The position numbers were made by a program, and so were the translations under genes. From positions 868,001-932,000 of the forward strand of contig JAMXDE010000008.1 of assembly GCA_026770025.1 (NCBI GenBank): a DNA stretch of 64,000 nt, written 5' to 3'. Source of the DNA: Craspedostauros australis (lineage: Eukaryota > Bacillariophyta > Bacillariophyceae > Mastogloiales > Achnanthaceae). Positions 31,731-45,339 of the stretch are shown one piece after another. Under the pieces are notes generated by a model. The model was not told the origin of the DNA, made no database searches, and was given only the letters and a program-made list of their open reading frames with translations. Each line of letters opens with the position of its first letter. The first letter of the stretch is position 1.

Positions 31731-33148
31731 GATGATGGATCTACTCGCATGGTCAAGATTGATCCTCTGCTGCGTCCAACGAGTGTGTGTGGTCCCATGG
31801 TCCATCAGTACTCGCGCTTGCTCGACAGCCGCCACCATTGGAGAATAATTGCTAACCTTTCACACACATCCATCGTCCACAGGCAGCTCGTATTGCGTAG
31901 CGTATTGATGTATAGTACTCACAATCGTTGTCATGAATCCACAAATTCAGCAATCAATTCACAACAGGTTGGGAGACCGCGGCGACATTGGTGGTGGTGG
32001 CGGTGGTGGATCAAAACGACATGTTCTCGGCAGCCTCGCTGAACGTGATGGTTTGGCCCCACCAATGCCTTGGGAAGCGTGGTAAAGACGATGTCCCTCC
32101 CTTGTTGGTGCGTGTATCCGGCAACCGATCTTTTGGAGGCGACATGGATGGCGTTTGTGCTGTCTCTTGATTGTTGTCGCAGCCGTGTGTTCGTCTTGTT
32201 TCTGGTCCAAGTGCTTCCGGGTTCTGTGGGATGACACAAGTAGTTTCTGGCCGATCCATTCTCCAGTGAATGAACCGAAGTGCGAACTGGGTGGGCATAA
32301 CACCGAAGTGGAACAGATTGTTGGTTCCAAACGCGATCCAGAGAAGCGATGTTTCTTTGGGGATGGGGACAAGGAATCATGAGATTGTTCTCCCCTCCAT
32401 CGGTTGGAACCCATGCGTTCGCGTGATGCGATTGACACTTCTCTGGGTACATTGGAGTACCCGTACCAATCCGAACAGAACTCGTCACGATAAATGGTGC
32501 ATGTCAGAATGTCCTCTCCAACCACCCATGGTTGCGAACCGTTGTGTCTGTTCGCTCCCACCAACTGGCCATGGAAAGTACCAACGACAAGACAACGCAC
32601 CCCTGCCATCAATGCCGAAGGAGAAGCGAATTCAGAACTGCGTCGAAAGAGCCGCCCCAGAGAGCGCTGGCCAGAATTCCAATGTGAACCATGCGCGTCT
32701 GCAGAGAGCGGTTTTGAAGCCGTGTACCAACAAGGATGATTGCAGGGCAGAGAGGGCGCGTCCATGCTCCCGCCGTACGACTACAAACAAGCTGCTCCAT
32801 GCCCGCAGAGGAGGCGCTGGCCGAAGGCTTGCTACCAGCAACACAACAGGAGAGAAACGCAAACAAGAGAAACACAAACAGAGGAGAAGGAGCAACCAGG
32901 AGCACCACAGTACTATACATCGATCACAGAGAAACACAACAAGAACAACAGCAACAACAGCATCACAACCACGAGGACCAACAGCACTGCACAATACTCG
33001 GACCATACCATACAACACACCCTCACAATCCATCACCCTTCGCCACACCCGTAACCCTGGCCGTAGCTGTACCTCCGACCGCGTCCACAACAACGAGTCT
33101 CGCACCAGAAGTGAGAAGCCAACTTCATCAGCATCCACAAGCCCCAAC
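31731..33148. other. Intergenic and globin gene 5' UTR
   Basis: The globin reading frame stays open upstream to 32270, but from about 32880 the encoded text is Thr/Asn/Gln repeats from a CA-rich leader. It resembles other 5' UTRs here, so it is not included in the CDS. Confidence 0.45.
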
Positions 33149-34666
33149 ATGATCGTACCATCGCATCTGGAGTCGTCACCGGCCTTTGATCATGCTCGTA
33201 CAATGCTGCCTGCCAAGAAGCCAGGCAACAGCACCGCGTTCACTTCGTCGGCACAAACCAACAGGATCAAGAAGACCGGAGTGAGTGTCTCGGAAACGTC
33301 CAGAACAACCGCTTTGCATGCGAGCGATGGCCAAAGCAGTTCTGCCGCACAAGTCGATGCCCCCACAGATCGACTTCATGCAGATTCCCAAAGACCAACA
33401 TTGATGGCAGCCACCAAGTCGCCGGGAACCGCCGTGGATGGCAATGTCAATGGAGATAAGGGTCTGGACAGCCACGCTGGTGTCGCCGCCGCTGCGGCTG
33501 CTGCTACTCATAGCAATGGCGATGTCGGCAATGACGAGACTCCAGTAGCAACCCAATTGAGATCAATATACTCGACATTGACTACACACAGCGGCACCAG
33601 CACATACGATGAGTCTTCCCCAACAGATGACCAGGCTGACAATGACCAGAACGACGTCAGTGTTGACAATCAATGTCGCAAGGATCTTCGCCAACCCAGC
33701 AGCAGCGCAAGCCTGTTTGAGAGACGTAGGTACATCCTGCACATCACGTGGCGATCCGTCAACTACGGTCTGCGCGACATGAAGGCCATCGAGATCTTTT
33801 ACGATCGTTTGTTCTCTCAGCACCCGTCCGTCAGAGAGCTGTTCCCCGCCAGTATGAAACAGCAACTCAAGAAGATCTTTCAGGCCATCTCCTTTGCCGT
33901 TCGTTGCCTGGATGAGATCGGCGACGATGCACTTGACATTGATCTGGGCGATAGTAGAAATCACGACTTGAGCACGCAATCCATAAGAACGAGGTCAGAT
34001 TCAGACTGTAGTGGAGACGGCATGAAAGAAGATAAGCAACGCAGCGAGGCATCCATCGCTTGCTTTGCCAACAGCAGCAGCAATGACAATGGAGACGACG
34101 AAGGTGGAAGCTTCTGGACCTACCAGAGCCATGTTTCATCGTACAGCAACTGGGATTCTGAATGTCAAGATACGCATGCTGCTACAGATGCAACACGCGC
34201 CACAGGGGCAACAGGAGATGGATCCAGCGCCCAACGCAGCGAGGAACGAACGCACGGAACTGGGAATGGCGGGAACAAAAGCACGAGCCCAAAACGCACA
34301 AGCAAAACCAAGGACAGCGGAACGGACCGCCTGATCCCGGTCCTGCAGGAATTGGGACGTCGGCACTCCGTATCGTACGGTGTCAAGCGAGAGCATTACT
34401 CTGCTGTCGCGGAATGCTTCGTGTGGACACTGCAGACCTACATGATGGATCAGATGGCCTACATGGCGCGCGGCATGGCCTACGATGTTGCAGATGCGTG
34501 GGGGTTCGCGCTGCAGTTCATTGGCACCATCATGGCAGATGCTGGTGACGAAGCGCTGCGGCAATTGCAGGATGAGCAGGATGCGATGCAAGACATGTCG
34601 TCGTCAAGCGAAGGCAGCGACGGTGGCGAAGATGGCGATAAAGTTGCCACCAGCAATCACCGCTGA
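33149..34666 (+). CDS. Globin with long disordered insertion inside the fold
   Basis: 505 residues from the ATG at 33149; the upstream open frame looks like UTR. The N-terminal ~185 residues are disordered. The globin domain begins at RRRYILHITWRSV (about 190), followed by FYDRLFSQHPSVRELFPASMKQQLKKIFQAI; Q238/Q239 is a candidate distal E7 residue. After LDEIGDDAL the fold is interrupted by about 130 residues of Ser/Asp/Thr/Gly-rich sequence. It resumes at LIPVLQELGRRHSVSYGVK with the proximal His at 406, then HYSAVAECFVWTL and the last helix ADAWGFALQFIG. Heme binding and oxygen or NO chemistry are likely from these residues. No reductase domain is attached, so a sensor or NO dioxygenase with a separate reductase are both possible. 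Confidence 0.78.
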   Translation: MIVPSHLESSPAFDHARTMLPAKKPGNSTAFTSSAQTNRIKKTGVSVSETSRTTALHASDGQSSSAAQVDAPTDRLHADSQRPTLMAATKSPGTAVDGNVNGDKGLDSHAGVAAAAAAATHSNGDVGNDETPVATQLRSIYSTLTTHSGTSTYDESSPTDDQADNDQNDVSVDNQCRKDLRQPSSSASLFERRRYILHITWRSVNYGLRDMKAIEIFYDRLFSQHPSVRELFPASMKQQLKKIFQAISFAVRCLDEIGDDALDIDLGDSRNHDLSTQSIRTRSDSDCSGDGMKEDKQRSEASIACFANSSSNDNGDDEGGSFWTYQSHVSSYSNWDSECQDTHAATDATRATGATGDGSSAQRSEERTHGTGNGGNKSTSPKRTSKTKDSGTDRLIPVLQELGRRHSVSYGVKREHYSAVAECFVWTLQTYMMDQMAYMARGMAYDVADAWGFALQFIGTIMADAGDEALRQLQDEQDAMQDMSSSSEGSDGGEDGDKVATSNHR

Positions 34667-35286: not shown

Positions 35287-37215
35287 ATGGTTCACCGTGC
35301 TCAGCATCTGGTCTCTGGCTCTGCCTTGGCTGTGCCTTCAGCGTTCAATGTCATCATGATCATCGCGACACTATGCACACGGAGCTTTGCTTTTGAATTT
35401 CATCATGCGCAAACGCGCTCGCTGAGAAATCAATTGCAACAGCAGCAGCTGAAGCCCATCGCTCGTAAGTGCTCTGCTTTCGTTGCAACTGCTGGAGCGT
35501 CTTCTCTATCAGCCAAAAGCAACAACAACGATGACGATGTTGATGAGCATGCCGAAGATGCATTGCCAAAAAGGGTTGCTGTTGTTGGAGGTGGTCTGGC
35601 TGGACTGTCCATCACGTTCCACCTGCTTCAAAAGCAGCCGAACATTGACATTACCATCTTTGACAAGTCCGCAGTTGGTTGCGGTGGTGCATCGGCTGTG
35701 GCTGGAGGGTAAGTCCATTCGAGGCGTCTGTTCAAGTTGGACAACAGCGCAAATGAACTTCCTCCTATTCTTACACATAGTTGGTTTGGTACAAGTGTCA
35801 GGTTGCGAGCAAGTCGGTGACGAAAGAAAAATGTTTGCTACTCCTCATCAAGCCCCAGCTTATGACGACATACATTACCACCAAGATCTCTGAGACTGCT
35901 CCGCAACCCGTACAACATTAATGATAACGATGACAACCGCCCCAAAGAGCAACCTCGTCTATTGGCCATCACTGTGCATGCAAGTATGCGCACATCACAG
36001 AGTGTTGAATGTCCAAATCGTTGACGCTCACATCAATCTAACGCTTTTCGTGCTTCCATTCGAATTCGTATCATGCACCTCGCTTCGCTCTTCAGATTGC
36101 TGCACCCGCTGAGCCCACGCGGCAAGTTGGTCTTCCTCGGGATGGAAAGTTTGAAATGCACCAATGCTATGGTTGATGAAGCCCGCAAGCACTTGGACCT
36201 TGACGATGATCACGGCCCCAACAAGGTGGTGCTGTTGGACGAAATCTACCGCGTTGCAACAACGGACAAGCACGTGGGGCAGTTGCAATCAACCGCAACA
36301 CGACTACCGCACATTTGCGAGTGGCTCGGCCGTGATGATCTGATCGAACTGCCCATGTACGGCGAAACGTTCCGCAAGGAATCGTCCATACTCGGCGGAT
36401 TGAGGATGCACTCCGGCTGCAGAGTCATTCACGTCCCATCCTACCTGAAGAGCTTGTACAAGACCTGCTGCTCCATGAGCGCAGGGTCGATCAAGTGGGT
36501 GCAAGATGCACAAACGGAACAGAAGACCAAAGAAGCGCAGGAATGGTACCCGCAGCTGAAGGATTTCGATGCTGTCGCGTTCTCCGCCGGATCTGGCCTT
36601 TTCGAAGACGCCGTCCTCTCTTCCATCGCCGGCACACAAGACGCAACAGATGGTGAAGTCACGAACCCATTTCCGATCACGCTGGTCCGAGGCCAATCCA
36701 TCGAGCTTGTTCCTCATGAGCAAGTGGACGAAGGTGCGGCGCCAGCAATCGGAAGTAGCATGGGAGCTGGCAGCCGAATGCCAGCCATGCTTTGTGGGAA
36801 GTACCTCTCTCCGTTACCAACGCCTGGGCGCATGTCGCTTGGAGCGACGCACGAATTTAAGACCAAGGCGCTGGATGCAGAACAAGTCGTGGCCGAGTTG
36901 AAGGACCGATCCTATTCCTTCGCGAAGGAAGTGTGGGATAGCAGCAAGGTCAGCAAGATCACAGGTGCGAAACGAGTGCAGAGCAACCGCGGCAATTTCG
37001 GACGCCTGCCGATTGCTGGCAAGCTGGACACGCCAATCCACAATAATGCATGGATACTGACAGGCTTGAGCAGCCGTGGCCTGCTATATCATGGGATCTA
37101 CGGCAGGACGGTGGCCACGATGATGCTTCAACAGCAGCTGCAGGACCATGAAAAAGAAGGATCAGATGATGTGACGGTCGACGTTGACACACTGGACTGG
37201 TGGAGAACCAAGTAG
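35287..37215 (+). CDS. FAD-dependent amine/amino-acid oxidase-like protein (DAO superfamily), two exons
   Basis: Exons are 35287-35708 and 36096-37215 (intron GTAAGT...TTCAG), 513 residues. The start gives a hydrophobic signal (AFNVIMIIATLCTRS) followed by FAFEF, a weak ASAFAP-like site, so plastid or secretory targeting is possible. The FAD-binding Rossmann motif is VAVVGGGLAGLS (about 96-107), with the acidic strand end ITIFDKS. GGASAVAGGLLHPLSPRG follows and is completed exactly across the intron; it resembles the flavin-contacting segment of DAO-type oxidases such as the MnmC C-terminal domain and cyanobacterial homologues. The C-terminal end has GFDR-like GNFGRLPIAG and GLSSRGLLYHGIYGR, another FAD contact. 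The substrate (glycine, D-amino acid or another secondary amine) cannot be told. Confidence 0.8.
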
Positions 37216-37980
37216 AGGAGAATAGACTCTTCAGCAGAGATATAATATGTGCATGGAGTGGAGTCATGCAGCTAGAATACTACTATATAATATTAGAATA
37301 GAGTAGAACAGAATAAGAGAGAGGAAATTCACGAACCAGCCCTTTTGAAGTGCTGATTTGCATGTGCATCCAACGGAGCCAAGAGCACTTACCAACTACT
37401 TCGTGCGAGTACGTACCATACGCGTACAACGTGTAATACATACATTCGGGCACGTCGAGCGCTGTCGATGAAAGTGCTCCACGATACTCTCCTGGTGCGG
37501 CAGCAAGTCGACAGAACAATCTCAAAGGTCGGAGGCGTTTCCTTGTTGACGGCAGTCTCTCCTCCGCTTGCGGAATAGGTCATCATGTACTCTCACTCAT
37601 TGTATGTCATCGTCGGCAAACTGGTCTGCTCGTACTCTACTCTCTAGATACCTCTATCTATTCCCCTCGCCTCTGGACTCGCAACTGTGTTAACTTTGCA
37701 TGTTCCGTTTTCCATCAGGGTCGAAGTGCGTCGAGACTTCGTTCGATCCGTCATTCAAAACGTCACGTTTGCCATGCCGCAGTTGCAGATGGCGATGTGT
37801 ACATGCCTTAGCCAAGCAAGCAAAGGCGCGGTGTTGCGACAGGAGTTTACTTCGAGTAGTGTACCACATGTAGAGTTGAATACAGTGGAGTGGAGGAGAG
37901 TCAGGTCTGGCAATGTGTCCGGTGAATGTATAATTGCATAGAATATTCCACTCCACCATCCACATCCCATGTTCTCAAGG
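37216..37980. other. Convergent 3' region containing the SECIS candidate
   Basis: Between the FAD gene (plus) and the selenoprotein gene (minus). The right part is the selenoprotein 3' UTR and includes the SECIS-like hairpin listed next. AT-rich sequence near 37270-37310 may hold a polyadenylation region. Confidence 0.6.
37706..37762 (-). promoter_or_regulatory. Candidate SECIS element for the UGYC selenoprotein
   Basis: Minus-strand hairpin about 220 bases after the selenoprotein stop. Lower helix: CGTTTT (37762-37757) pairs with AAAACG (37711-37706). The non-Watson-Crick core is ATGA (37754-37751) opposite TGAT (37717-37714). Upper helix: GGATCGAA pairs with TTCGACCC, eight pairs apart from one A-C mismatch. 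The conserved AA (37739-37738) stands at the 5' side of the apical loop, 11 bases after ATGA. Order, spacing and core bases all fit the eukaryotic SECIS consensus that recruits SBP2 and the Sec-specific elongation factor. The fold was done by hand. Confidence 0.8.
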
Positions 37981-38952
37981 CTACAATTCGACATGCTTGG
38001 GGGAGGCTTGAGATTGCTGTGTTGAAGTTTTGGTAGAAGTTGTAGTTTGATCTTCGCTGCCGCTCTCACTTGCCATTGGAACCTCCTTGGCGTTGTAAAC
38101 TGGAGACGACAGCGCGTGTTGGGACAAGAAGCTGTGGAGCTTCCGCTTTGTGAATTCTGCGCCGTCGTAGCGGACAAAAGCATCGTTGGTGTTGACAAGA
38201 TCCACAAGTTCGCCCGGTGGGATCACAATCAACAGCGGCAACCCATCTTTGGACGATTGTGAGATGCCGAACTGTTTCATGATCTCTTGGTTGTTCTTCG
38301 TTGGTGGCACTTCCGCAATTAGGATGCGACGACGGAACTCGGTTGAAAGAAATTTCGTCATGGGCGCCGTCCGTGGCTTGCTGGTGAACAGGATGGCCAG
38401 TGGCAAACCGAACTTCTTCGCCTTGGCAATGGCCTTGTCCAGGTCGGACTGACCAAATGTGATGCGCTGGCTGTAGTTCGTCATCTCATTCTCGATGAAC
38501 TGCTTCATGTCTTTTGCCTTGCGCTCGAAGTTGTAGTCCACAACGGTCTTGTCCGAGTTGCTCTCAGGCTTGCGCTGCTTCTTCTTGGGCTTGAAGAGAC
38601 GGATGGTGGGCGTTCCCTGGATTTCCCCCAACAAACGCGGTGGAGGACGGCTGCGGTTCCCCTCCGTGTCCCAATAGGCGATCTTGACGATCCCCTTGGC
38701 AGCCTTTGCCAGCTGTTCCCACTCAGGAGTGAGACGCTGGCAGTATCCTCATCCTTGTCGACAGATGTTCACAAACACCGCATGGGGTGACTCGACCACC
38801 TCCTTTCTCCAGTTTTCATGCGTCAATGCGACCACGTTGGACGAGAACGGATTTCCAGCGCTGACAGATGTGACAGCAAGTAGGGCCCCAAGGGTCCAGG
38901 CTGTTGCTTTGCGCGCCCACAACAGAGCCGGTCGGTTACTGTGGGCCACCAT
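37981..38952 (-). CDS. Selenoprotein: ER protein disulfide isomerase-like, UGYC redox site (TGA at 38751-38749 = Sec)
   Basis: One open frame of 323 residues if TGA at 38751-38749 is read as selenocysteine (U68). The N-terminus is a signal peptide (TLGALLAVTSVSA). The thioredoxin fold follows: VVALTHENWRKEVV, then ICRQG-U-GYC-QRLTPEWEQLAKA, which aligns with PDI sites of the form APWCGHC-x-x-L-x-PEWE. Sec therefore takes the place of the first, attacking Cys, and C71 is the resolving Cys. GIVKIAYWD and the cis-Pro strand GTPTIRLF complete the fold. A second, redox-inactive thioredoxin-like domain (about 175-270) and a Ser/Thr-rich tail follow. The last four residues, HVEL, resemble the HDEL/KDEL ER-retrieval signal. 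Coding character is identical on both sides of the TGA and a SECIS lies downstream. Role: disulfide exchange in the ER lumen. Confidence 0.87.
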
Positions 38953-40711
38953 GGTGGATTTTCAGTGTCTTTTGCTGCTCTATCCGAATGTGCAGCTTAC
39001 GTTTTATGCTGATGCTGTTTTGCGAGCTGCGAGTACAATTGTGCGCCTTCGCGAATCGTCGAAAAGGGGCTCGTTGCAAAGTGCTTGTGACGACTTCGCC
39101 ATTTGTCGCAGATCTTTGCTTTTTGTTGCTGATGGATTTGGGGGTTGCGGCGGATTATATTTAGCGAATATTATCTCACGACGACGTCGCGTTGCATGTC
39201 ACACGACATGTCTCTACTTTTAGTCATGTATAGCATCAGAACCTGATCGAAGAATCTCATGGTCGTCCTTCATACATCACACTGTGGCTCAACAGGGACT
39301 CCATCGCCGTCAATCATGCGGGCGTCGCTGTTGAGTTGTGTTGGTATGAAGCAGACGCGAGCACAAGTACAAGTACAAGTCTGAATGCGCTCTCGTGATG
39401 GTCACACACGTTGTCACTTTCACACGAATACCAGCAACTAAATCTTGTACAACGGCTGCCCCCGCACACTCCTGTACCCACGAATTTCACAAGGATTTGT
39501 CTCTATGTAGGTCCTAGCTTGCCGCCTCCAAGATCGGCAGATCTCCGAGACGATACCTGTAGGTTCCGCCTTGGATGTCGGAATGCCGGTGGATTGCTGA
39601 CCAGTCTCCAACGTCGTGTATGTGATGCGCAATCGGCACAAAACGGCGCAACGCACTGCATACCGCACATGCCCATGTACACAAACGTGGATGAGATGGC
39701 AGCAAGAAATAGTTGGCGATGTTGAAGTCGGAGTGGGCAGGAATGTTGATGCCTTCGTTGATTTTTGTCAACAGTTCGCTTTCGACTCAAAAATGTGAAG
39801 CAACTTGCGTTCATCGAAATCGTCCATGTTCATCTGTTGCTTGCGTTTTGGTGATCAAGTCGTGAGCGATAGTCCAAGGAACATTCCACAGAGTTCATTC
39901 CTTGATTTCTTGTTCCAACTGGCATTCTCGTCGCTTTCAATTGCGCTCTTTTCGAACCAGGCACACCGCTTGGGAGAAGACGGCAACGATGGCGATAGCA
40001 ACGACGAAGGCGGTAGCCCTGGAGATATCATGCATTCGCTACCTCAATCCATGCACGGCCAGATCGTTGCAAATCTGCGCACCTCTCCATGATCCTTCTC
40101 ATGTGATCTTTTGAGAAGGGAAGAGAGACCATCTGAGTCCCTCGATCATGGATTGTGGATCGTGCTGGAACCAGGAGGCGGATGGAAGATCCATCTCGGG
40201 ATCATGGAGTCTTGCTGAGTGAGAAAGACCTGTCCAGAGATCAAACATGAAAACAACCGAATGTGTACGGGCCTGCGTCGTGCGTCGTGCGTCGTGCGTC
40301 GTGCATCACAGTTGTGCCAAACCTAATCGTCATGCTCAACGCAAGTATTACACTTGCCATCAAACCCACGAGCACTCGTGCTCGTGCTCATTCATGCTCA
40401 CACTCGTAGTCGTACTATGTCTGAAGAGAGGATCATCACATTCGGATCTCACAAAAACGCCCAAGCTCCAAAGTTGAACACAGACCCCAAAAAACAAAGC
40501 CAACTGCGATACCGTTCCACCAAGAGATCTATCATATCCATAGTGATTTCATTGCAAAATACTTCGGACAAACAAACTCACCAACAGAAAGAAAACAAAC
40601 AAGTATCACATTACATCAAATACACTACACAGCACTACACTGCACTATACAATTTCTAAACAACGTGGTTGAACATCCAACTCCAGGAGACAACCAAGAC
40701 GTTCCACTATC
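38953..40711. other. Gene-poor region with possible small minus-strand exons
   Basis: Upstream of the selenoprotein gene (minus) and of the RND gene (plus). A possible signal-peptide exon is listed separately. A second open segment at about 39503-39810 minus (containing INEGINIPAHSDFNIANYF) could be an exon, but I cannot join it. A CGTCGTG tandem run lies at about 40273-40306. CA-rich 5' UTR sequence precedes the RND start. Confidence 0.4.
39937..40035 (-). CDS. Possible signal-peptide exon of a small secreted protein
   Basis: ATG at 40035, two codons after an in-frame stop, then 32 codons to TGA. The text ATAFVVAIAIVAVFSQAVC is a textbook signal peptide, with GTC/GCC/ATC codons like the real genes nearby. 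The frame stops soon after, so either an intron begins near GCG|GTGTGC or this is chance. A possible next exon starts at 39833 (MNMDDFDERKLLH). Weak support. Confidence 0.25.
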   Translation of the reverse strand: MHDISRATAFVVAIAIVAVFSQAVCLVRKERN

Positions 40712-43700
40712 ATGATCCAAGGTATCGAAGTCGAGGCTGATCCTCCCGTCGTTTCCAACGAAGAAATGCCTTACGAAGAGGATGACGACAACAGCAACAA
40801 GAACAAGAACGACGACAACAACAACAACGAGAAGATCTGGCAACGTGTGGCACGACGAGTCGCTCGCAATCCGCGAAGGTACCTTCTCGGGGCTCTCGCC
40901 ACTTCTCTGGTGCTCTCCGTCGTTGGCATGGTCGCCGGCGAGTTCAGCGTCGGCGCTGACACTGGTGGATGGCAATCGCGTGGAACCACGATCGCTGATC
41001 GCACTGCGCAAGTGCTGCTCGTCGAGATGAACCGAGAGTACATCTACAACGAAGGAGAGGCGGCATGGAGCGATCTCATCAACAATGTCCAGCCAGGATA
41101 TGATGGTGACGACAGCGACGATGACAGTAACGACAACAGCAAGAGGACCAACACCGGAGATGACAATAACCGTCGACTGGCATCATCCTTTGGCTCAACT
41201 CCGATTTCATCCTTCCTCTCGCAGGCTTCCACCAGCGTTGGTAGCAACGCTCTCAGACATGGCAACCACCGCACTCGCACGATGCCCTTCACCATGACAA
41301 GCGAGCTTCGCCGTCGCCTCGAGGAGAAAAGCCATCTCATGCCAGGCTGCGACTTCGGATGGTACAATTCGGAATCGATGACCAACTCATCCCGCCTCTG
41401 GCCCATCTGGGAGGTCAAGAGCTCCAAGTCAGCCCTTGATGCAGATATCATCTACGAACTTTGCGTCGCTGAGGAGGACACCCAGCGCATTTTGGAGGAG
41501 AAAGGCCACTGCTTTGGATGCGATGAAGGATGTCTCCCACCCTTGTCCATCGTGCTCTACGCCCGACTCGCCTTGACCTCCGACGACGGTCTGTCCATGT
41601 CCTGCGCAGCCCTTCGAGATGCATGGGGGCCATACGAGGCCAAGACGAAGCAAGAATGGATCACCTGCGTCACCGACTTCGATACCGACTACGACCCAGA
41701 AACCAAGACCATCCCCGCATCTTGCCCTGACCATTTCTCCTCCGCCATGGTGAACTTCGACTACGACGAGACTGGCGTGGTGTCTTACACCTCCTCCATC
41801 TTTGCCACCTATAGCGACGATGACACTCTCGAGGACATGTTCGACGATGTGGACAAGTACGCCGACGGTAGTGGCGGCGTGACTGGGGTGTACGACACCC
41901 AGGAGGAAGATTTTGTCGACCTTTACGCTGATGGCGCGCTGACATCCGATATGGCCTTGGCCATGGCATCGGCTGTGATCGTCGCCATCGCCATCATGGT
42001 CCACACCCGCAGCCCCTTTATCACATTGATTGGCCTGGTGCAGATCATCCTCAGCTTCCCACTGTCCTTCTTCGTCTACAGCCTGATCCTTGGGCTGGAG
42101 TTCTTCCCATTCTTGAATTTCCTCGGCATGTTCGTCATCTTCGGACTTGGTGCTGACGACGTAAGTACCACATGGCCTCATACTCGTGTCATGGACGCAC
42201 GATGAAGGAGCCAAGAGATTGCATATGCACTGATAGCTCACGCAATTTTGTATCTAACCAATCGCATATGCTGTTCTGTTCATTTCATGTCGCCGCTCTA
42301 CCGCCATTGAATCTATCCACACCATCACCATACCGACATGCCGTCGTGCCATATTTGCATGCCACGCAACAATACTCTCAACGCGTATAAATGGAACACA
42401 CGCACGCACGCACACAGGTCTTCGTTGCCATGGACAAGTGGAAGAATGCCCGCCTGGATCACCCCAATTCATCCACCGAAGACATTGCGGCTATGGCGCT
42501 ACCAGATGCCGCGTCTGCGATGTTCCTCACCACGATCACCACCGCAGTCGCTTTCTTCGCCACCGCCATCTGCCCTGTCGCACCAGTCAAGATGTTCGCG
42601 ATCTTCTGCGGTCTCCTCGTCCTCCTCGATTACTTTCTCAACGTGCTGCTGGTTTTCCCAGCCCTCTGCATGTATGACATCGCTATCCAAGAGAAGGGCG
42701 ATCAGGTCAGTTGCTGCATTCACTTTGATCACTGGTGCAACCTGTGCTGCCGCAAGAACGGTGGGGACAACGACAGCGAAGCGGGCTCAGTGACCTCCTC
42801 GCAACGTGAGGACGGGGCAAAGCGCAACGGCGATCGGCTTCACGATTCCAACAACGATGCTGTTGGCAATGGCGAAGATGAAGATGAAAACATATCCCTT
42901 ATTCGACGGGCCCTGCTGGGGCTATTCTACATCCTGAAGCGCGGAAAGTGGCCAATCTTCGTGCTCTCCATGGTTGCGCTTGTGGTGACCGCCATCTTTG
43001 CAGCAAAGCTAGACCTCCCAACCTCTTCGGATGTCCGCGTTCTGGGGGATGACGTCGAGTTTGAGCAGGCGTACGTCTGGAGACAGAAGCTTCTGTACGA
43101 TCAGCTCGATAGGGCAGAAGGCAGCGTCGCTTACATCATTTGGGGTGTCAAGCCCGCAGACACCGGCAACCACGGTAAGTGAACCTCGTGACTTCGTGCG
43201 AAGAGATCCTGGCCAGCGCTTCTCTATCCATTCGATAACCATTGGATGCTCTTTCAACTCACGCCCTCCGTTCATTCCGAATCACTTTGATCCAACATCG
43301 ACTTTCGTTCAAACTGATCCGCATCCACATGATACAACAACCTCAGACAACCCGGACGAATGGACACAAGTCGTCCTTGACGAGTCGTTCGACCCTGCCA
43401 CCCAAGAGAGCCAGCAGCACCTTCTCGACATCTGCAGCAGTACCTTCGCCCAAGACTTCGCTGACCCCATCGGGTCCAACTACACCTGCTCGTTTTCTGG
43501 GTTGAACCAGTGGCTCGTTGACGAGTCATCTGCGGCCTCACCAAGTCAGATCTACCAAGACAACTGCGCTGGAGCTGACAAGCTCCCGATGCCATCCGAC
43601 AGCTTCCATGGATGCATGACCGCATGGGCCAGGGAAGTGGAGGACTTGAATGTTATGTCGAGAAATGGCCGTGTCACGATCTTCTTGATTCCATTCAATT

Positions 43701-44689
43701 CTCGCGTGCGCTACGATGATCACTACGACAAGCTCGATGACGAGTGGAAGCTCATCGACGACTGGATGAAAGAACAGAACAAGGAACACGCATCAGAAGG
43801 GACCGACAAAGCATTCTTCTCGTCTGCCGATTTTTGGTGGTATGACACCAACGGGTAAGTCCGCGATCGTCAGTTCGTCATTCTATTGCGCTCCACATAT
43901 GCTTGATTTGGCACAATTCAATGACTTCCAACGACTTCGTCGCTCATACACTCACTCACTCACTCACTCCTCACACATGCAATACATGTATGTACACCTA
44001 CCCACTTGCATATATACACCCACGAACACTCCAACAGACAAATGCTCAAGACAGCATATGGATCTGCCGGTATTGCTCTTGGTGCTGCCACGATCATGTT
44101 GCTGGCCACATCCCGCTCCTTGCTCCTAACTCTCTTCTCGACAACGACCGTGGCTTACGTTCTCACCTCCGTCACCGCTTCGCTGGTCTCCCTCGGCTGG
44201 ACACTGGGCTTCCTTGAGTCCATCTGCTTCGCCATTCTGATCGGAATCTCTTGCGACTTTGTCCTTCACTTCGCACATGCCTACACCACGATGGAGGGTG
44301 ATGTGCACCGCGAAGAGCGCACCAAGTTCGCAATACTCCACATGGGGCCATCCATCTTGGCAGCAGGCTTCACCACGATCGCATCGGCAGCAGTAATGAA
44401 CTTCACGGTCATCACGTTCTTCCAGAAGTTCGGCCTCATCTTGCTCATCGCCGTCATCCAAGCAACCATCGGTGCCTTCATCGTGTTCAACACGCTCGTG
44501 ATCTGCTTTGGTCCCAAGAATCCCTCCAAGATGTATGACGCGCTGAAGGAGAAGTGTTCAAGTGGAAACCGTAGCCAATCGCAAACCAACAAGGACGGAG
44601 ACAGCAGCGACACCAACGGCGACACCAACGGCGACGAGGAAAACAACATTGGCACCACCGCGAACATGCGCGCATCTCGCCCCTACTAA
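40712..44689 (+). CDS. Patched/Dispatched-like RND membrane protein with sterol-sensing-type domain, four exons
   Basis: Exons are 40712-42160, 42418-43174, 43347-43854 and 44038-44689, 1121 residues. All donors are GTAAGT; acceptors are CACAG, CTCAG and CAACAG. Architecture is the RND doublet. First helix at about 57-75 (GALATSLVLSVVGMVAG), then a large lumenal loop with many Cys (LMPGCDFGW, CFGCDEGCLPP). Helices 2-6 follow, with the GADDVFVAMDKW motif at exon junction 1. After a cytosolic loop with an acidic disordered stretch comes helix 7, a second lumenal loop (DICSSTFAQDF) and helices 8-12 with GISCDFVLHFAH. GADD and GxxxD are the proton or ion-relay acids of Patched, Dispatched and NPC1. 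The inferred function is lipid or sterol movement; the cargo is unknown. Confidence 0.85.
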
Positions 44690-45339
44690 AAAACATCGCA
44701 CCTCCAACCGATCTGTTTGCACTTCGACATCAGAAGAGTCGCCAGAAGAGCCACAAATATGATATTATACGAACAACGCGCACAGCGCAAAACCGCCACG
44801 AAACACCTGAAACGCAAGAAGAAGATGCAGAGCAGAGTCCTCGGAAGAATAACCATGTATACTCTCTACAAATAGATGATAGGATAAATATTCAAACAGT
44901 AGGCATGATCGAACTGAAATCAATTCAGCCATGAACTACTCTCAGAACCATACCATACCATACCATACGACCCACTTGAGTGACGGGACCTGCAGTCGGT
45001 GCTGGGGTGCCGGCAACATACTATACGGGGCTTTCGACCAAATCACTCACACATTCATAAACTAGAGGACGGACTGTGGGTCCCGTCACTCGACCGGGTC
45101 TTAATCGTATTAGTCAAGCGTTTCCAGAAGCCCAAAGAAACTCGACGAAGAACGCTTTTTCGCGATCAACACACAAATCACGGAGTCAGCGAAAGATGAC
45201 ACGCCGATCATCTCACAAAACACACGCTCCGACAAGCCGCAGCAACCCCCTCGCCGCATTCCACACCTCCTCGCAATTGCAATCAGATCGACGATCGCAA
45301 AAGCACCTTCTCGCACCCTCCCAATACGTACACCCAACG
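44690..45339. other. Intergenic/5' region of the PUB-domain gene
   Basis: Contains a tandem CCATA run (about 44949-44968) and the inverted repeat listed next. The PUB frame is open upstream to 45076, but I prefer the ATG at 45340, whose residues (MAELKKSEASIDDVW) look structured. Confidence 0.5.
44978..45091. repeat. 114-bp inverted-repeat element (hairpin or MITE-like)
   Basis: Perfect 13-bp arms: GAGTGACGGGACC (44978-44990) and GGTCCCGTCACTC (45079-45091). Imperfect complementarity extends about 8 bases inward (CAGTC opposite GACTG). The loop is about 70 bases. No clear target duplication was seen. It sits in the leader or promoter of the PUB-domain gene. Confidence 0.6.

Follow-up and report, generated by a model that had tools for sequence, protein, structure and literature searches.

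Can a TGA codon that interrupts a reading frame like that of a protein disulfide isomerase (PDI), in the diatom Craspedostauros australis, be read as selenocysteine (Sec) at the very position of a catalytic cysteine? The frame lies within a 64,000-nucleotide stretch of contig JAMXDE010000008.1 (assembly GCA_026770025.1, positions 868,001 to 932,000), which we call the window, and a sequence-only reading had proposed such a use of the codon. Judged from sequence evidence, the locus almost certainly is a nuclear gene for an ER-lumenal PDI-family thiol-disulfide oxidoreductase in which the UGA at codon 68 would be decoded as selenocysteine.

An intact frame and its duplicate

The argument starts from two features:
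37981..38952, minus strand: coding sequence of the PDI-like selenoprotein, 323 codons and a TAG stop, with one in-frame TGA
38751..38749, minus strand: TGA codon 68, read as a putative selenocysteine from the frame and from the state of relatives at the site

The frame opens with an ATG at 38952 and closes with the TAG at 37983..37981, and codon 68 is its sole break. Both the coordinates and the strand given in the sequence-only reading are exact, as is its placing of the TGA at the first Cys of the CxxC found in PDI-type thioredoxin domains: the alignment with PDIA6 passes through the site without a gap (CRQG-U-GYCQRLTPEWE versus YAPW-C-GHCQRLTPEWK). Thioredoxin-fold sequence was also said to continue unshifted past the TGA, and the Pfam Thioredoxin match (PF00085, residues 40-135, E 1.1e-15) does cross it.

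A rival reading makes the TGA a true stop, ending a short N-terminal peptide, or has an intron remove it from the mature mRNA. Some database gene models skip the site, and the letters alone allow 240 GT..AG spans over the TGA, each in frame and 40-400 nt long. However, every one of them would cut into the codon for the conserved residue C64, and 239 also into the one for C71, while homology extends without interruption from one side of the TGA to the other. A 67-residue product would be without most of the thioredoxin fold, and a Coscinodiscus transcriptome protein, described below, retains TGA or CGA at the site. We consider a genuine stop or an intron very improbable; the locus is a real, intact gene.

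The gene belongs to a segment that occurs twice:
37367..44962: segment duplicated in inverted orientation, with its second copy at C6:1866631-1874291 of the same genome

The inverted copy measures ~7.6 kb and is separated from the window segment by roughly 1 Mb of one contig, with identities of 91.7 and 93.9% in two long pieces (93.9% over 2280 columns). There the selenoprotein gene retains the TGA, but a TAG at codon 51 and the deletion of 7 nt have broken it. Outside the deletion, the two copies show 13 synonymous and 8 non-synonymous codon differences (the TAG among the 8), distributed as 4 and 4 up to codon 68 and 9 and 5 after it. The resulting pS of 0.059 and pN of 0.011 (ratio about 0.18) indicate that the frame has apparently been constrained as protein during some, at least, of the period after the duplication, and, combined with homology on both sides of the TGA, they place the selenoprotein frame beyond chance.

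The duplicated segment takes in the selenoprotein gene together with the start, at least, of a divergently oriented neighbor, of which a 497-residue frame at 40712-42205 on the plus strand is part (no Pfam match at E 0.001). Other loci were observed on the other side of the gene. Tail-to-tail with it, at 36073-37215 on the plus strand, stands an FAD-dependent oxidoreductase (PF01266 on its relatives), whose named relatives among the 120 matches listed, of 257, are diatom proteins, including those of Bacillariaceae, Nitzschia, Cylindrotheca, Odontella, and Thalassiosira. An Rfam SNORD24 snoRNA match occupies 35812-35897, plus strand (50.2 bits; gathering score, 41), and a 798-residue frame at 32270-34666, plus strand, has a partial globin match near its C-terminal end (PF00042, 29.6 bits), no individual stretch of which passes alone.

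The site across relatives

Searching with the N-terminal 67 residues retrieved 28 relatives from 28 candidates, and all 28 end exactly at C-R-x-G. The length limit of this search favors short proteins, so 28 of 28 is not to be read as a frequency, and the end point itself is exact. This result bears directly on the possibility that an ordinary PDI gene of the Cys type shows a TGA here through faulty sequencing or a recent mutation that disabled it, which would make it an assembly artifact or a pseudogene. Decay does occur at the locus, as the pseudogene-like duplicate with its TAG and 7-nt deletion illustrates. Against this, the window gene is otherwise intact, with the low pN/pS given above, and the same-codon stop in all 28 short relatives contradicts error and pseudogene alike. 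A misread TGC or TGT, a danger already raised in the sequence-only reading, would have to affect the duplicate as well, since both copies share the TGA. We see a very slim chance that the codon arose by error or decay.

Selenocysteine at codon 68 also agrees with the remaining relatives. A full-protein search found 189 rows, of which 120 are listed; one (P0002) is the window's own lower half. Among those listed, 92 (P0002 included) do not span the site and 28 reach it. The prediction that annotation would split the gene at the TGA is thus borne out, both by these 92 rows and by the 28 short proteins that stop there, and most of the database entries retrieved for this branch are truncated near the codon. 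Named sources among the matches listed, including Nitzschia, Seminavis, and Coscinodiscus, are diatoms.

By pairwise alignment, the 28 site-reaching rows carry W in 17 cases, Cys in 8 (including P0012, whose gene model is doubtful there), Asp in 1 (P0028), Glu in 1 (P0032), and a gap in 1 (P0115). All 17 W rows come from the sources jgi, lgn, or ena, which we take to be metagenome collections. Among the matches listed, W occurs in none of the seven ncbi, eukprot, or mmetsp rows (P0012, P0032, P0061, P0067, P0087, P0110, and P0115), which begin downstream or diverge from the family sequence at the site. Some gene callers choose code 4 and so translate TGA as W. Confinement of W to the jgi, lgn, and ena rows is what would be expected if the codon were TGA and were read through solely by such callers, and we infer that W at this site stands for a TGA codon.

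One of the exceptions points the same way. P0032, a Coscinodiscus wailesii protein from the MMETSP transcriptome project, reads VVKDEDTAS at the site; of this, KDEDTAS is what the window gene yields over the corresponding stretch when read in the +1 frame. Back-translation allows only TGA or CGA as the in-frame site codon if the stretch is unbroken, excluding TGG, TGC, and TGT; the neighboring codons are compatible with, though not fixed to, C-R-x-G before the site and G-Y-C-Q after it. A TGA codon therefore appears to be present in the mRNA of a relative. The expectation that homologues would have either Cys or TGA at this codon thus holds for the 8 Cys rows and, with TGA deduced from W, for 17 others; it fails for P0028, which has neither Cys nor W and reads ESDENHC.

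Searches for the relatives' DNA with a pattern carrying W or C, not TGA, at the site gave 6 matches in the viral_contigs collection and 33 in genome_contigs, none of them confirmed (by alignment for viral_contigs). A pattern for the motif with TGA had no match in viral_contigs and a single one in genome_contigs, on a Bacteroidales contig (L072); tblastn aligned only residues 63-75 (E 0.005), and we rejected this match as chance.

The relatives further define the motif around the codon:
38740..38763, minus strand: redox motif C64-R-Q-G-U68-G-Y-C71, delimited by invariance in 24 aligned proteins

The alignment comprises the window protein and 23 of the 28 site-reaching rows (P0012, P0028, P0032, P0052, and P0115 were excluded). 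C64, R65, G67, G69, Y70, and C71 are invariant in all 24 proteins, the window's own included, giving a family motif C-R-x-G-[U/C]-G-Y-C. The lead-in ICRQG, which had been singled out as unusual in place of APW, is therefore family-wide. C64 stands four positions ahead of U68, at a place that Tyr occupies in PDIA6; its counterpart is also present in all 28 short relatives and in P0028 and P0052, which lie outside the alignment. Besides C64, C71, and the Sec/Cys site, no alignment column has Cys in more than 4 of the 24 proteins.

We built a tree, with the site masked, from 25 rows: the window's own, 17 W, and 7 Cys, representing 24 of the 28 site-reaching rows. The excluded rows were P0028, P0012 and P0115 (both doubtful gene models at the site), and P0032 (out of frame there). 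On this tree, rooted at its midpoint only, the Cys label needs two changes; the 5-95% range over bootstraps is likewise two, with one change in 3% of bootstrap trees, and the well-supported branches alone require only one. The midpoint-rooted topology suggests that the TGA/W form predates the Cys form. A larger proposal is that these proteins form a separate diatom selenoprotein branch with a three-residue center CxxxUxxC, Sec as its ancestral state, and two later changes from Sec to Cys, a branch largely hidden in databases through the tendency of gene models to break at its TGA. We put this forward tentatively and think it rather unlikely as a whole; if true, two cysteines would be available to the enzyme, either of which could resolve its selenenylsulfide.

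Decoding machinery and a candidate SECIS

We searched the genome (74.8 Mb, 90 contigs) for three components of Sec decoding, namely tRNA-Sec, SepSecS, and eEFSec. It encodes a TCA-anticodon tRNA-Sec (76.6 bits; cut-off, 47) together with SepSecS and eEFSec. Four more tRNA-Sec matches fall below the cut-off, which the family passes in 5 of 14 genomes used as a control. In addition, TGA is present at classical Sec sites elsewhere in the genome:
L012, L015, L016, L017, L018, and L063: six further TGA genes (SelT, two GPx, two SelM/Sep15-like, and MsrA)

These correspond to one of two Rdx matches (SelT), two of three GPx matches, both SelM/Sep15-like matches, and one of 12 MsrA matches. The other 11 MsrA matches are free of TGA (one has TAA), and none of the seven AhpC-TSA_2 matches contains a stop. 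TGA occurs in 4 of 43 thioredoxin-domain matches, and at the active site only in the window gene and its copy, the active-site motif having been read directly in 30 of the 43. Two other loci, L052 and C16:873800, were rejected as active-site TGA genes: they have ordinary Cys sites, and their TGA lies elsewhere, apparently in or beside introns. A stop before GTC at L045 was likewise set aside, being found only in added flanking sequence that is probably intronic; immediately upstream of L045, on that contig, L055 reads CGPC.

These results also weigh on the idea of a variant code in which the TGA stands for tryptophan or is generally read through, for which the 17 rows deposited with W among the 120 matches listed might speak. 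The site, however, opens a CxxC-type redox motif and alternates with Cys, and the ncbi, eukprot, and mmetsp rows listed are without Trp there. Furthermore, the genome has tRNA-Sec, SepSecS, and eEFSec as well as TGA at six other classical Sec sites, and frames of the other families searched are mostly TGA-free, as in MsrA. A variant code appears exceedingly improbable. The shared stop, the Cys homologues, homology on both sides of the codon, the Sec machinery, and the other selenoprotein genes all support the central proposal of the sequence-only reading, namely that an ER PDI-like protein has Sec in its redox motif.

Sec insertion would call for a SECIS element in the 3' region:
37706..37762, minus strand: candidate SECIS, the one match when the 811-nt 3' region was scanned for the SECIS layout, and found at the same place in the second copy too

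The scan layout comprised a UGA/GA quartet, at least 7 helix II pairs, an unpaired AA 8-13 nt after the UGA, and helix I. The candidate combines a helix I of CGUUUU/AAAACG, a quartet of UGA (37753..37751) and GA (37716..37715), a helix II of 7 pairs with one mismatch, and an apical loop with AA 11 nt after the UGA. Its score of -14.9 is equaled in 37 of 400 dinucleotide shuffles, and the duplicate's score of -13.4 in 52 of 400. UGA sites as good number 33 (the candidate included) in 247.1 kb over both strands, corresponding to 0.09 expected per 0.7 kb; the chance expectation is 0.04 with A before the UGA and 0.01 with filters chosen post hoc. Minimum-energy folding does not set the candidate apart, its stability being no greater than that of shuffles (z 0.20 and 0.97).

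Rfam gave no SECIS match in the 3' region or the whole window, and its SECIS_1 model found none genome-wide despite the six other TGA genes, which marks the model as insensitive here. Our strict scan, applied to five of the other selenoprotein loci, was convincing at L017, weak at L018 (-4.6), and without a match at L012, L015, and L016, so it too is not sensitive; it made one match (-8.1) in five antisense controls, its false-positive rate being taken from the shuffle test and the genomic count. A relaxed scan found a good element at the MsrA gene L063 and unclear ones at SelT and GPx, so that SECIS-like elements of good layout lie downstream of L017 and L063.

In the duplicate, each arm of helix I is one base shorter and the arms still pair. 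This resembles compensatory change, but random mutation keeps as good a score in 574 of 4000 trials, so we give it little weight in favor of the candidate. Divergence between the copies is also higher within the candidate, at 4 of 63 bases plus gaps, than elsewhere in the 3' region, where it is 7 of 214 and 12 of 297. The evidence is suggestive that 37762..37706 is the most likely SECIS of the gene, as a candidate. Of the SECIS-like 3' UTR hairpin first reported from sequence, for which no coordinates accompanied the claim, what stands is one element of fitting layout; its statistical support is modest, and Rfam lends it none.

The predicted enzyme and known PDI-like selenoproteins

Four further features describe the encoded protein:
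38857..38952, minus strand: putative ER signal peptide, residues 1-32 (cut VSA/GNPFSS), recognized by eye and from a helix at residues 9-31 of the AF2 model
38548..38835, minus strand: catalytic thioredoxin (PDI a-type) domain, residues 40-135, by PF00085 and the structures of PDIA6 and Mpd1p
38101..38475, minus strand: second, Cys-free thioredoxin-like (b-type) domain, residues ~160-284, by the AF2 model and its alignment with Mpd1p
37984..37995, minus strand: HVEL, a KDEL-like ER-retrieval end, by the tally of C termini among relatives

The signal peptide and KDEL-like end had both been called from the letters, and a fitting N terminus and the HVEL end are found. The helix at residues 9-31 is hydrophobic, and on inspection a hydrophobic N terminus precedes NPFSSNV in relatives too. 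A [DE][LFM] end closes all 120 matches listed (of 189 found, the window's lower half P0002 included), most commonly as KVEL, KTEL, HTEF, KEEL, or HVEL. The protein thus carries putative signals for both ER targeting and retrieval. Residues 34-284 of the AF2 model align to the two-domain fold of yeast Mpd1p, with a pLDDT of 75-95 by 10-residue blocks in the second domain, and PF13848 matches several relatives. Catalytic features of the PDI family are present in the thioredoxin fold, the U-G-Y-C site, and a G-T-P-T at residues 113-116 that is invariant across the 24 aligned proteins and that we take to be the cis-Pro loop. With one redox domain and a second thioredoxin-like domain without Cys, the protein differs from classical PDI (a-b-b'-a'), which has two redox domains.

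If the gene is expressed, the UGA at codon 68 would be decoded by the cell's tRNA-Sec/eEFSec system, with Sec insertion directed by a 3' UTR SECIS, for which 37762..37706 is the candidate. The signal peptide would take the protein into the ER, and the KDEL-like end would retrieve it. There, U68 would attack and C71 resolve, and C64 may act as a third redox partner. Such an enzyme would link selenium supply to ER disulfide chemistry in diatoms. The family has many public relatives, most of whose listed gene models are without the active site (92 of 120 matches listed), and its natural Sec and Cys versions, otherwise alike, offer a ready test of what selenium contributes to a PDI-type enzyme.

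PDI-like selenoproteins occur in algae, as the sequence-only reading had stated. EhSEP2 of Emiliania huxleyi, the most abundant selenoprotein of that alga, was found by 75Se labeling and is described as PDI-like, with a single redox thioredoxin domain and Sec for the first Cys of a CxxC-type site (PMC6254913), a design also predicted for the window gene. The UGYC protein may work like EhSEP2, although its motif differs from the UGHC of the EhSEP2 type, and the C-R-x-G lead-in with its third Cys does not figure in the account of EhSEP2 in that source (PMC6254913). Among diatoms, two PDI selenoproteins were reported from Thalassiosira pseudonana in 2007 (PMC2375036). A 2020 survey of 137 algae gives 20-44 selenoprotein genes per diatom and sorts PDI selenoproteins into PDI_a to PDI_e (PMC7539508). 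PDI_a to PDI_d are algal PDI-like proteins with one Sec, like the window gene, whereas PDI_e, mainly from haptophytes and the SAR group, has three Sec in GUGUU, compared with one in the GUGYC found here, which places the window gene outside PDI_e (PMC7539508). Compared by descriptions rather than sequences, the window gene may be an orthologue of a Thalassiosira PDI selenoprotein or of one of PDI_a to PDI_d. At the Sec and C64 positions, the a0 domain of human PDIA6/P5 carries Cys and Tyr, respectively.

A search of literature text for UGYC returned no selenoprotein paper by title, and motifs printed in figures would escape it. PDI-like selenoproteins of algae, diatoms included, are already known. 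What is less expected here is the conserved CRxGUGYC site, whose third Cys is an uncommon and testable feature.
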